Positions 31,870-36,031 of a DNA stretch of 47,728 nucleotides are shown piece after piece. This stretch comes from Methanolacinia paynteri (GTDB lineage Archaea; Halobacteriota; Methanomicrobia; Methanomicrobiales; Methanomicrobiaceae). The translations under genes were made by a program, and so were the position numbers. The notes below the pieces were generated by a model. It was not told the DNA's origin and did not search any database. It saw nothing but the letters and a program-made list of their open reading frames with translations. Each line of letters begins with the position of its first letter. Position 1 is the stretch's first letter. The DNA is taken from positions 1 through 47,728 of the forward strand of contig NZ_AXDV01000036.1 of the NCBI RefSeq assembly GCF_000784355.1, read 5' to 3'.

Positions 31870-32694
31870 ATGAAGCAGATCGCCCTGTACGGAAAAGGCG
31901 GAATCGGAAAATCCACGACCTCGGCCAACCTTTCTGCCGCACTTTCTGAAAAATCCCTCGAGATCCTCCAGATCGGATGCGATCCCAAGCATGACAGCAC
32001 CCGCATGCTTATGCACGGAGAATGGATACCCACGGTCTTGGATCTTGTCAGGAAGAAAGGAGAAGCAAATATCGCAGTCGACGAGATCGTTTTTAAGGGA
32101 TATAACGGAATCAGGTGTGTAGAGGCCGGCGGGCCGGAACCTGGCATCGGATGTGCAGGCAGGGGAATCATAGCGACATTCCAGCTACTTGAGAAACTCG
32201 ACGCACTATACGGGGACGTGATCGTTTATGATGTTCTTGGCGATGTCGTATGCGGGGGATTTGCGATGCCTATGAGAGAAGGATATGCCCAGGAGGTCTA
32301 TCTCGTGACATCCGGAGACTTCATGGCCCTTTATGCCGCGAACAACATCTGCAAGGCGATAGCCCGGCTTTCGAAAAGGACAAAGAACAGGTGCACGCTC
32401 GGGGGAGTCATCTGCAACTCTGCGAATATCGAAAACGAATATGAGCTTGTCAAAGAGTTTGCAGAAAAGATAAATTCAAAACTCGTTGCCTTTATCCCGA
32501 GAAGCCCGATCGTCAGGGTTTCGGAGGTCAACAGGAAGACAGTGATAGAGTATGCACCTGAATCCGAACAGGCGGAAATTTACAGAAAACTTGCCGATAC
32601 GGTAATGAAAAATGTGCCTGACAAGAACAAAATTCCTGTACCGATGGAGATGGATGAACTCGAATCGCTCTCTCTCAAATACATCAAGATATAA
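31870..32694 (+). CDS. NifH-like ATPase/reductase of a nitrogenase-like system
   Basis: 274-residue homologue of nitrogenase Fe protein. The P-loop is [14 protein letters not shown] (Lys14). Switch motifs are CDPKHDSTR and VYDVLGD. The two cysteines that hold a 4Fe-4S cluster between subunits are present (Cys95 in GIGCAGRG, Cys128 in [10 protein letters not shown]), with Arg98 at the site modified in some nitrogenases. The protein should pass electrons with ATP hydrolysis to a component 1, evidently the two genes that follow. ATG codons at 31862 and 31865 lie just upstream in other frames. It does not by itself show nitrogen fixation. Confidence 0.9.
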
Positions 32695-33697
32695 CGGCTG
32701 CTCGGTCTCAGGCGCACTTTCGGTCTCTGCATTCATAAGAGATGCGGTGAGCATAGTCCACGGTCCGGCCGGCTGCGCACACCAGGCATCATCTCTCTTT
32801 CACTCCACAATGATTGCAAACGAACGTTTTGATATCCCCTACATCTACACCAGCGGCCTCCTGGAAGAGCAGATAATCTTCGGTGGAGAGAACAGGCTGA
32901 GGGAATCGATATCAGAGGCCCTTTCGTATGATCCTTCAGTTGTCTTCGTAATCGGCACATGCATATCGGAGACTATAGGCGATGATATAGATTCGGTATG
33001 CACCGACGCATGGGAAGTTCCGGTTATCAACCTCAATACTTCAGGATTCCTCGGAGATTCATTTGAAAGAGGTTTTTTAAATGCGATCAAAGGGGCGTCT
33101 GAGCTGATAACTGCCAGTGATGAAAAGACTCTCTCGGCAAATATCATCGGTGAAAAAAATCTTGAATTCGAGGTTGAAGAGAATTATTCAGAGATCAGGC
33201 GTCTCCTCGGTCTGCTCGGCATAGATATTAACATACGATTTGTAAGGGATATCACCACAGAAGACATACCAAATTTTTGCAGGGGGTCCCTGAATATAAT
33301 CAGGGAGGACCCTTCAGGCGTTCTTACACAATTTTTTGCTGAGAAGACAGGTATTCCGTCCATACCCAGGTTCCCGTCAGGAACCTCGGATACGCTCAAC
33401 TTCCTGGAGGAAGCCGGAAGACTCCTCAATCTCCCATGGGCGGAAGCCGTCGCGAGGGAGAAGGAATACCAGCGATCGGTTTTCGAAGAGTTTTCAGACC
33501 TGGGAGATGAGAGAATCGCATTCGATTCTTTCGGGTTTCAGGACGCCGATACGCAATTTTTCACAGATATAGCCAAAAATACCGGGATAAAAATTGATCC
33601 CGACGGGACAGTCATCCCAATACCCTTAACAGCCCCGGTGGGAACAACGGGAATCAGGAGAATGCTCAGGGAATGGAGGCGGTTTATAGATGCATGA
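32654..33697 (+). CDS. Nitrogenase-like component 1 subunit (NifD/E-like), first
   Basis: 347 residues. Three cysteines match the P-cluster ligand positions of NifD/NifK: Cys16 in YNGCSVSGA, Cys41 in [10 protein letters not shown] and Cys103 in [13 protein letters not shown]. It is much shorter than NifD (about 490). The chosen ATG 32654 overlaps the NifH-like gene by 41 bases and places Cys16 near the N-terminus; an upstream in-frame ATG at 32612 would add 14 non-conserved residues. I cannot assign FeMo-cofactor ligands by eye. It presumably pairs with the next gene. It differs from CfbD, which works as a single kind of subunit. Confidence 0.85.
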
Positions 33698-34808
33698 AAG
33701 GTGCATAAGCCCTGTCTGGCCCTGCGCAATGGTCGGGGCTGCATCCTGCATGGCGGGAATACGGGACCTCGGGGTTATTATTCACGGCTCTGCGGGCTGC
33801 TATAACTATGCAGAGATGGCAATACCGGATCCGCTGAACTGTACGTATCTCATAGAGGATGAGATCGTCTTCGGCACTGAGGCAAGGCTCAGGGAGACGG
33901 CAGGTGCCTTATCACAGATTTATGACAGGATTGCTGTCATCAATACATGCGTCCCCTCGATCACCGGAGAAGACCTCGAACAGTTCCTTGAAGACTATAA
34001 TGCGATTGTCTTAGATCTTCCCGGATTTTCAGGGGACTTTGACACCGGTTATCAAAAAGCTCTTGAAACTCTGGAAATAATCCCTGATTCAGAAAGGGAA
34101 GGTGTAAATATATCCGGAGTCTGTTCCACAGATCCATTTTCAGGAGGGAACCTGGCGGAGGCTGTAAGGCTCTTTCACCTCGCAGGGATCAAATCTGCGG
34201 CAGTATACTGCCGTGACACCTTCGAATCGATCAGGTCGCCGGCAGAACATGGTATATCGGTAAACCCCGATTATGATCCACGGACAGTTACCTCTCCCGG
34301 GTCTATTCTCGGCATAGAGGAACTGATAAAAGCATTTTGTATAATTCAAAATTTCTTTCAGGAGGCCGATATCGATCCCGTTATTTCGGAGGCCGAAGAA
34401 GCCGAAGAGAGAATCGTTAAGGCATGTGACAAATACCTGAGAAAAAACGACCCCCCACGGACTGCAGTCTTCTCGACGAGGTCGTACGCGGAATTCGCCG
34501 TAAAGTCGCTGGTGAAATATCTCGACGCCGAGATCGTATTTACAGGGCTGCGAAACTCCGAAGAATTTTCGATCCAGAATATTCCTTCGGGAAAAGCGGT
34601 CGACATCAGGATGATAAGAGAAAAGATATCAACCGAGGAGCCGGATCTCATTCTCGGCTCTTCTTTTGAAAATGTAGTCTCTCCCAAAACTCCCTTCGTC
34701 GGGATTACATTTCCGCAGAGAAGCAGAGTTGTGCTTCATAACAAACCTGTTGCAGGAACGGAAGGAGCGCTTGTCTTTATCGGGGATGTGCTCAATTCTT
34801 TGAGATAA
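33690..34808 (+). CDS. Nitrogenase-like component 1 subunit (NifK/N-like), second
   Basis: 372 residues. Again there are three cysteines in P-cluster positions: Cys12 in VWPCAMVGA, Cys37 in IHGSAGCYNY and Cys87 in INTCVPSITGED. Extra cysteines are near the N-terminus (5, 20, 51), with one in VCSTDPFSGG. The start overlaps the previous gene by 8 bases, with GGAGGCGG about 10-15 bases upstream. With its partner it would form a heterotetramer-like component 1. The substrate is unknown. It ends 15 bases from the convergent NifX-like gene. Confidence 0.85.
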   Translation: MHERCISPVWPCAMVGAASCMAGIRDLGVIIHGSAGCYNYAEMAIPDPLNCTYLIEDEIVFGTEARLRETAGALSQIYDRIAVINTCVPSITGEDLEQFLEDYNAIVLDLPGFSGDFDTGYQKALETLEIIPDSEREGVNISGVCSTDPFSGGNLAEAVRLFHLAGIKSAAVYCRDTFESIRSPAEHGISVNPDYDPRTVTSPGSILGIEELIKAFCIIQNFFQEADIDPVISEAEEAEERIVKACDKYLRKNDPPRTAVFSTRSYAEFAVKSLVKYLDAEIVFTGLRNSEEFSIQNIPSGKAVDIRMIREKISTEEPDLILGSSFENVVSPKTPFVGITFPQRSRVVLHNKPVAGTEGALVFIGDVLNSLR

Positions 34809-34823
34809 AAAAGAATAAATCGA

Positions 34824-35357
34824 TCAGTTCATTTTGTTGCCGCAGTTTGGACAGACCATATCTTCTTCTCCGCCGGTAATTTTTTTGGGCATCATGCACC
34901 CGCAGTCAGGGCAGATATAATGCTCTTCCCCCCGCTTAAGATTTGTCCAGTTCATCCTGTTTCCCTTTCTGAAGCTGTTCTGCAGGATCATATTTTCAAG
35001 AATCTCCGAACAATCAAGGCATTCAACCTGGCCTTCAAGGAGGAGATCCAAACCATCCCGTATAGCCATATCTCTTATCTCATATTGCCTGACACCGGAC
35101 CTGTGCAGAACAAGTGTGGAGCCCGGCCCGAATCTTCCTGCAACAACTGCAGAAACTCCCATATTCAGCACCTGGCCGGCAGCCATCGTTCCTGCACTTC
35201 CCGGAAAATCCGCTGAAGAATTTCTGACGCCTGAAGCAGATACAATCCTGCCCGATTCTATTTCTGCGATACAAAACGCAGAGCATCTCCCGAAATTTTC
35301 AGATATGTCATCATAGAGACTTCCGTCATTTTTACCAGCAATTGCAACCTTTTCCAT
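34824..35357 (-). CDS. NifX/NifB-C-like cofactor-binding domain protein with C-terminal zinc ribbon
   Basis: 177 residues. An N-terminal domain of the dinitrogenase iron-molybdenum cofactor type (about 1-115) contains VAIAGKNDGSLYDDISENFG, then GTMAAGQVLNMGVSAVVAG and GPGSTLVLHRSGV. A short CLDC motif follows, and the C-terminal zinc ribbon has ICPDCGCMMPKK and VCPNCGNKMN. ATG 35357 was chosen as it starts the conserved domain; a frame open further upstream crosses the promoter. Such domains carry metal clusters in NifX and NafY. It is convergent with the nitrogenase-like genes and may serve them, but that is inference. Confidence 0.82.
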   Translation of the reverse strand: MEKVAIAGKNDGSLYDDISENFGRCSAFCIAEIESGRIVSASGVRNSSADFPGSAGTMAAGQVLNMGVSAVVAGRFGPGSTLVLHRSGVRQYEIRDMAIRDGLDLLLEGQVECLDCSEILENMILQNSFRKGNRMNWTNLKRGEEHYICPDCGCMMPKKITGGEEDMVCPNCGNKMN

Positions 35358-35385
35358 AACCCTTCGCCCCCGCCGCAATTTTAAA

Positions 35386-35394
35386 AATATATAG
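35386..35394 (-). promoter_or_regulatory. TATA box for the NifX-like gene
   Basis: The minus strand reads CTATATATT, centred about 33 bases before ATG 35357. This supports the shorter start, because a longer protein would have to be translated from upstream of its own promoter. Confidence 0.5.
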
Positions 35395-35428
35395 TCAGTA
35401 GATAATAAGAAATTTGGTATCGGTACAA

Positions 35429-36031
35429 TCAATTGTTATTCAGGCTCTTCCAGACATGAACAAATCTCTGGATTGCAGTGAAATGACCTAAGGTCCCGAA
35501 TAATACCATCAGCCACCCGAATATACCGAGGCCTGCAAAATTCAGGGGATAAATGACTGCGATTACTCCGCCCGCGATCAGCAGGACGAGCCTGTCCGCC
35601 CGCCCGAGGATTCCTCCGTAGAATCTCCCGGCACCCACCGCCTGCGCCTGTGTTCCGAGATATGAAGACATCAGCACGCCTGTCAGTGCAAAAACACCAA
35701 TCGGCCATGGACACAGATCTCCTGCAAATATTCCGCAGATGATAACTATATCGGCATAACGGTCGAGGACATGATCGAGGAAATCCCCCCGCGGCGAGGC
35801 GGTGTTCAGCTCTCTGGCAATGGAACCGTCGATGGCATCAAAAAAGGCGTTGAGAAATACAAAAACTGTTCCAAGGACGATATCAGTTTTGTAATAGAAA
35901 TACCCGGCCACTACAGCTGCAATAAATGCGATTATCGTGCAGCTGTCCGGCGTAAATCTCAGCCGGACCATTGCACGCGCCGTAGGTTTTACGATCCACG
36001 AAACACTATTTCTGTAGCTGTCAAGAGTCAT
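35429..36031 (-). CDS. CDP-alcohol phosphatidyltransferase, probable archaetidylinositol-phosphate synthase
   Basis: 200-residue membrane enzyme. The complete CDP-alcohol motif D-x2-D-G-x2-A-R-x8-G-x3-D-x3-D is present (Asp65, Asp68, Gly69, Ala72, Arg73, Gly82, Asp86, Asp90), with about six hydrophobic segments. Archaeal members of this size join CDP-archaeol with inositol-1-phosphate to give archaetidylinositol phosphate; a glycerol- or serine-type acceptor cannot be excluded. The start overlaps the AK6-like gene by 4 bases (ATGA). Confidence 0.85.
   Translation of the reverse strand: MTLDSYRNSVSWIVKPTARAMVRLRFTPDSCTIIAFIAAVVAGYFYYKTDIVLGTVFVFLNAFFDAIDGSIARELNTASPRGDFLDHVLDRYADIVIICGIFAGDLCPWPIGVFALTGVLMSSYLGTQAQAVGAGRFYGGILGRADRLVLLIAGGVIAVIYPLNFAGLGIFGWLMVLFGTLGHFTAIQRFVHVWKSLNNN

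Follow-up and report, generated by a model that had tools for sequence, protein, structure and literature searches.

Comparison for the locus treated here is offered by several described relatives of nitrogenase: the CfbC/CfbD enzyme of F430 synthesis (PMC7242693), methylthio-alkane reductase, MarHDK (PMC12552129), and isethionate reductase (PMC11423573). Complex L-type clusters are moreover described from the activation of methyl-coenzyme M reductase (MCR; PMC12176620). Pairs of nitrogen-fixation-like (Nfl) component-1 proteins that carry P-cluster cysteines in a 3+3 arrangement and lack a ligand for the iron-molybdenum cofactor (FeMoco) have been described in general terms (Dos Santos 2012, PMC3464626). 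The present analysis concerns a three-gene set, here called H-D-K, in Methanolacinia paynteri (order Methanomicrobiales), located at positions 31870 to 34808 of NZ_AXDV01000036.1 (contig C12). The stretch of 47,728 nucleotides, referred to below as the window, belongs to a genome of 2.79 Mb that is 98% complete. H is most likely the CfbC of Methanomicrobiales, and the reading that we prefer, with a probability of about 0.45, is that this one Fe protein serves both CfbD, in F430 synthesis, and a D/K reductase whose substrate is probably a tetrapyrrole.

All three genes lie on the forward strand. H (31870 to 32694) encodes a NifH-type ATP-dependent Fe-S reductase of 274 amino acids (PF00142, Fer4_NifH, 365 bits), D (32654 to 33697) a NifD/E-like component-1 subunit of 347 amino acids, and K (33690 to 34808) a NifK-like component-1 subunit of 372 amino acids. 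As the original prediction stated, H carries a P-loop (GKGGIGKST) and two motif cysteines, one within GIGCAGRG, all read directly in the sequence, and is followed by two overlapping NifD/K-like genes, recognised by Pfam; from the meaning of the motifs, we take the two cysteines to be Fe-S cluster ligands. The overlaps run end to start, with 41 bases shared by H and D and 8 by D and K, as in a translationally coupled operon. The start of D was set by alignment to the ATG at 32654, which is common to most relatives and whose methionine is nearly invariant in a 20-row alignment; the open-reading-frame caller opens D at 32612. Both D and K match Oxidored_nitro (PF00148), at 171 and 128.6 bits against a gathering score of 28.6, and their models (predicted local distance difference test, pLDDT, 88.9 and 93.6, respectively) align over nearly full length with component-1 chains. 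By this score and fold, D and K are members of the nitrogenase component-1 superfamily.

Their place within the superfamily was examined in a tree of 64 rows, 16 of the original 80 having been dropped by hand (near-duplicate Nif, D, K and CfbD sequences, and very divergent or incomplete Nfl ones). Herein, the D and the K sequences group into one clade each, both supported at 100/100 and both outside the CfbD, NifDE, NifKN and Mar-type rows, and CfbD is separate at 100/100; the deep order of the tree is weak, with ChlN and ChlB represented by single rows on long branches. Judged from their sequences, D and K are an uncharacterised pair of two different component-1 subunits, and the claim that this locus holds two different catalytic subunits of a separate lineage is borne out. 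CfbD was rejected as an identity for either protein, TIGR03282 giving 52.7 and 34.4 bits against a cut-off of 268.4 and both lying outside the CfbD clade; moreover, D and K carry three conserved cysteines each, whereas of the three positions two are retained in the five CfbD rows aligned. NifDK and NifEN were rejected on the best score (109.9 against 505.1, NifE), the absent cofactor-ligand cysteine and the position outside both clades, and MarDK on the same absent cysteine and a separate clade. In addition, D falls below the equivalog cut-offs for dark-operative protochlorophyllide oxidoreductase (DPOR; BchB, 68 vs. 490.35) and chlorophyllide oxidoreductase (BchZ, 37.2 vs. 529). A genome of the same order (G041) has at least two sets with MarD-like genes (L281, L282), one of which matches methylthio-alkane reductase chain 9fmg_A at 2e-74, the match through which the Mar-type rows (g41a) of the tree were identified.

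The cysteine pattern gives the pair its most distinctive character. Cys16, Cys41 and Cys103 of D are invariant (58/58 rows), as are Cys12, Cys37 and Cys87 of K (47/47), and Cys5 of K is nearly so (47/47 rows in one alignment, 32/33 in another). In an alignment with chains from the Protein Data Bank, the six align to cysteines of solved NifE and AnfK-type chains, which we take to be P-cluster ligands. These positions suggest a P-cluster-type site, to which D and K would contribute three cysteines each at nitrogenase positions. D has no counterpart of the cofactor-binding cysteine of NifD, which in NifE holds the L-cluster. Arg217 of D, invariant in 58/58 rows, is aligned to the cofactor-ligand cysteine in one alignment and stands beside a gap before that cysteine in another. 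The cysteine of the NFCRG motif of D was considered as a FeMoco ligand and rejected, as it is not conserved in relatives. If a P-cluster-type site without a FeMoco-type cofactor is indeed present, it would supply thinking on the origin of nitrogenase with a useful intermediate. The description of cysteines in the Nfl pairs cited above equals that of D and K; the available portion of that paper names no 3+3 pair from Methanomicrobiales and no link to cfbC, and its Methanocorpusculum pair has 2+1 cysteines (Dos Santos 2012, PMC3464626). In the literature searched, which covered few subscription journals and was available in part, no account was found of the H-D-K set in Methanomicrobiales or of a linkage of D/K to cfbC.

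MarHDK resembles the locus in its H-D-K operon and its six P-cluster-type cysteines, a set that methylthio-alkane reductase has in common with nitrogenase. H could accordingly be CfbC and D/K nevertheless reduce a small substrate other than a tetrapyrrole, for example at a C-S or C=N bond, in the manner of the methylthio-alkane and isethionate reductases; such substrates are known in the Nfl superfamily (PMC12552129, PMC11423573). This is rather unlikely, however, given that D lacks the cofactor-ligand cysteine that MarD keeps, that MarD-type sequences form a separate clade, and that no sulfur-metabolism gene occurs among the annotated conserved neighbours.

One structural comparison points toward DPOR (BchN-BchB or ChlN-ChlB), although likeness of shape does not establish membership. 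Using VIA-align, the best match of both subunits was BchB of DPOR, over nearly the whole length: for D with Z 28.9, root-mean-square deviation 3.4 and 329 aligned residues, and for K with Z 38.4, 2.5 and 364. A cavity without a metal cofactor would be a further likeness. Several points weigh against the resemblance. Foldseek ranks nitrogenase chains first by E-value (5vpw_C for D, 7adr_B for K), and its best TM-scores, among the rows shown, go to NifE for D and AnfK for K, so that it is the Z-scores that carry the lead of BchB. D and K are short, as BchB is, which bears on that lead, and the closest sequence match of D is NifE. DPOR uses four cluster ligands, in contrast to the six conserved cysteines of D/K, which are nitrogenase-like, and the equivalog scores noted above are far under the DPOR cut-offs.

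The evidence on H begins with the cfb genes of its own genome. Here cfbA, cfbE, cfbD and cfbB, each exceeding its NCBIfam cut-off, lie together on contig C46 in the order cfbA-cfbE-cfbD-cfbB, which provides a CfbD separate from D and K, and the slot for cfbC between cfbD and cfbB is empty. This slot is occupied by cfbC in four genomes of another family of the phylum, f8 (L326, L294, L291, L298), which we guess to be relatives of Methanosarcina, and is empty in four loci examined from Methanomicrobiales (L021, L084, L239, L240). Compared with the canonical cluster, cfbC has left its place. In Methanothermobacter, the nflD and nflH genes are also unlinked (PMC3087415), and a detached cfbC is therefore not unusual by itself. 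A study of Cfb evolution found that most genomes with Mcr or Acr possess all of CfbABCDE and, in the portion available, reports no duplicate pathway (PMC9982363).

H reaches 420.1 bits with the NCBIfam CfbC model NF033200 (cut-off 402). At 1e-60, this model finds exactly one match in 41 of 60 genomes of the order (a set that includes M. paynteri), two or three in 16 and none in three, and never more than one match per genome exceeds the cut-off; in the 41 genomes with a single match, a nif NifH therefore cannot substitute. CfbD is present in 56 of the 60 genomes and over its cut-off in 55. Three NifH-type genes are found in M. paynteri, namely the nif NifH (C40), an H-D fusion (C31) and H, other PF00142 matches reaching at most 46 bits. 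H as the sole NifH-type protein is accordingly a pattern that holds across the order and not in M. paynteri; this comparison rests on searches of the 60 genomes with the CfbC and CfbD models, cfbA, cfbB and cfbE having been searched in a part of them. Because the cfbC slot is empty, H is often the sole match of the CfbC model, and H is retained where D and K are missing (see below), H is most likely the CfbC of the order and the best candidate for it in its own genome.

Other results weigh against equating the two. In the tree, H and canonical CfbC form separate groups. In an approximately unbiased (AU) test, neither a joint clade of H and canonical CfbC (p 0.148) nor one of H and NifH (p 0.122) was rejected. 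The CfbC model is also unspecific: L299, L302, L305 and L310 exceed its cut-off yet cluster with NifH, and CfbC names based on NF033200 alone are unsafe. The H tree is compatible both with relocation of an old cfbC and with its displacement by a new one. The separate clade of H could further mean that H is private to D/K and that the assemblies lack CfbC or another protein has taken its place; this is very improbable in view of the 41 of 60 genomes in which H is the sole match of its kind, and of the two genomes that keep H without D/K.

D orthologues were found in 57 of the 60 genomes searched, again counting M. paynteri (partial in G026). No D match occurred in G005 or G058, which are 76% and 71% complete, and none was found in G043, whose H sits at a contig edge. 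In a phylum-wide sample of 392 genomes, in which the best five candidates per genome were scored, 81 of 83 Methanomicrobiales genomes carried D at 355 bits or more, and the H-D-K set is therefore far beyond chance. Among the matches listed, carriers include Methanogenium, Methanomicrobium, Methanoregula, Methanoculleus, Methanofollis, Methanolinea, Methanocalculus and Methanocorpusculum. Outside the order, no D at orthologue level was found in this sample; the best other matches listed reach at most 205.5 bits and resemble, in frame length and place, the H-D fusion lineage and NifE-type proteins. Linkage is also conserved: in 54 of 57 genomes H and D share a strand, with H no more than 500 bases upstream; in the three exceptions the genes are on different contigs (G010, G011) or D was not found (G043). 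In two sets of fetched loci, H adjoins D in 28/30 and 50/52, the four loci without H beside D having D less than 170 bases from the end of the fetched contig stretch, and K directly follows D in 24/30 and 44/52. K stands further off in four other loci (L122, L119, L128, L129), where the intervening genes gave no functional clue by eye.

Two genomes, G184 and G405, show H without its partners. Both lack a D-profile match at orthologue level, neither D nor K stands beside H, and CfbD is present, located away from H. In G184, H is the only NifH-type protein, no D-profile match appears at 1e-30, and a search with the CfbD model returns CfbD only; in M. paynteri the same model also reaches D and K, and genome-wide the search for K in G184 and G405 extends as far as this model picks it up. 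FprA, H and the genes that lie 3' of K in relatives keep their order in both genomes, with D and K gone, as does TrkH in G184. H thus has a role independent of D/K. Other Nfl sets are present besides H in G405, which has five NifH-type proteins (L234, L235, L236, L237, L238), namely the standalone H and those of nif, of the fusion and of two more Nfl sets. The H proteins of G184 and G405 branch deepest within the order (midpoint root). Both genomes belong to family f5, and since the other listed members of this family carry D, loss of D/K is a simpler reading than gain elsewhere.

These findings change the view of the operon as a whole. The original prediction had set all of H-D-K apart from F430 synthesis, with the provision that absence of any other cfbC in the genome would make this the F430 enzyme. 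Such a second cfbC was not found as far as the searches go: the cfbC slot is empty, the other NifH-type proteins belong to nif and to the H-D fusion, and H survives without D/K. The separation from F430 synthesis is thereby given up for H. Placement outside the CfbD and NifEN clades stands for D and K, while for H, which stands apart from canonical CfbC in the tree, the AU test rejects neither a joint clade with it nor one with NifH. What remains is a conserved, order-wide pairing of a probable F430 Fe protein with an uncharacterised reductase.

Alternatively, D and K might act within F430 synthesis and relieve CfbD of one of the three double-bond reductions. The strict linkage of D to the probable cfbC (54/57) and its near-universal occurrence in the order (81/83) would agree with such a role. 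It is nonetheless unlikely: CfbD exceeds its cut-off in 55 of 60 genomes, G184 and G405 have CfbD without D/K, and CfbC, CfbD and ATP yield the reduced, lactam-bearing product in vitro (PMC7242693).

In the preferred reading, that H serves both CfbD and D/K, a reduced H dimer would bind MgATP and dock on a D2K2 tetramer, and each cycle would pass a single electron to an Fe-S cluster for which D and K supply three cysteines each. The electrons would then move on to an organic substrate in the cavity where nitrogenase holds its cofactor, a cavity predicted to lack the cofactor-ligand cysteine and to have the invariant Arg217 at or near its place. By the same docking, H would reduce CfbD for F430 synthesis. 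The likeliest substrate of D/K would be a nickel- or cobalt-type tetrapyrrole, either in biosynthesis or in repair, by re-reduction of an oxidised macrocycle. A tetrapyrrole is favoured because the sister fusion lineage often stands among chelatase-like and corrinoid-transport-like genes, an argument by relationship; it also leans on the BchB lead in fold and on CfbD, the other presumed client of H, being a tetrapyrrole reductase. Weighing against it, neither the window genes annotated between 29946 and 37610 nor the annotated conserved neighbours in relatives include a tetrapyrrole gene. A new substrate for D/K is possible. More tentative is the fuller picture in which Methanomicrobiales run two ATP-dependent tetrapyrrole reductases from one Fe protein: CfbD for F430, and D/K, a hitherto unrecognised heteromeric reductase with a P-cluster-type site and no FeMoco-type cofactor, for making or repairing another metallo-tetrapyrrole. 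If true, one Fe protein would be shown to serve two different catalytic components, the whereabouts of cfbC in Methanomicrobiales would be explained, and a large methanogen order would prove to retain an unknown reduction in almost every genome examined. NifH-like calls in these genomes are not to be equated with nitrogen fixation.

In the fusion lineage, a single frame of about 740 amino acids spans both a NifH-type and a NifD-type part, and K follows (L022, on C31 of M. paynteri; L320, L321, L322, L324). Fusions of H and E types were noted as early as 2012 (PMC3464626). Its D part is the sister of D (100/97) and its K the sister of K (90/78); it is found on C31 and in f8 genomes. It differs from D/K in the fusion itself, in its chelatase-like and corrinoid-transport-like neighbours, and in the loss of K cysteines, one of the three P-cluster positions being left and two lost in four aligned rows. 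The neighbours on C31 include a CobN-type chelatase subunit that exceeds its NCBIfam cut-off, and CbiK-, BtuC/BtuD- and CbiS-like genes adjoin the fusion. Across seven fusion loci, BtuC/BtuD-like and CbiS/CbiZ-like genes occur in five, CobN-type genes in three and CbiK-like genes in three. As evidence for a tetrapyrrole this is tempered by the CbiK-, BtuC/BtuD- and CbiS-like matches on C31 all being below cut-off, and by L323 and L325, which share no such neighbours beyond a weak BtuD-like match. The fusion locus is a candidate metallo-tetrapyrrole locus of its own.

The statement that no nif or cfb genes are nearby holds for the window, in which profile searches of the genome placed no further NifH-, nif- or cfb-type gene, and fails for the genome, where C40 carries nifHDKEN, C31 the second Nfl set, C44 a single NifB-type gene and C46 the cfb cluster. 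A single NifB-type gene was found in each of five genomes searched, among them L329 (C44 of M. paynteri) and L331 of G184, the latter at 341.0 bits, slightly below the cut-off of 343.65. In G184, where the nitrogenase relatives found are of CfbC and CfbD type only, this gene is in line with NifB serving MCR activation. D and K could also be imagined to act like NifEN, as a scaffold or carrier of complex Fe-S clusters such as the [8Fe-9S-C] cluster of MCR activation, as NifE is the closest sequence relative of D, a NifB-type gene is present in all five genomes, and MCR activation uses such clusters (PMC12176620). MCR activation is general, yet G184 and G405 have no D, the 392-genome sample yielded none at orthologue level outside the order, and G184 keeps its NifB-type gene without D/K. 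D also lacks the cysteine that holds the L-cluster in NifE, and the scaffold role is on the whole quite improbable.

Among the remaining neighbours, a divergent ABC (ATP-binding cassette) exporter gene lies 97 bases from the operon. Convergent to K, on the reverse strand at 34824 to 35432, is a gene whose product has a Nitro_FeMo-Co (NifX-type) domain and, at its C-terminus, two CxxC-type motifs. This protein gave no match in PHROGs and does not figure in any of the 40 largest clusters formed by the neighbours of 52 named loci, the window, L233 and L234, and Rfam gave no match in the window; a NifX-family protein has been speculated to shuttle F430 (PMC12622379). In many relatives leuB and leuD stand beside K. 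They were rejected as a functional clue, being over cut-off as 3-isopropylmalate dehydrogenase and the LeuD/DmdB family, yet they were not seen in the 16 kb around H in G184 and G405 either, so that a functional link to D/K is conceivable. Finally, a small conserved protein without a Pfam match (L117, 12214 to 12669, and relatives) comes after K in many Methanoregula-type loci and, where D and K are absent, after H.

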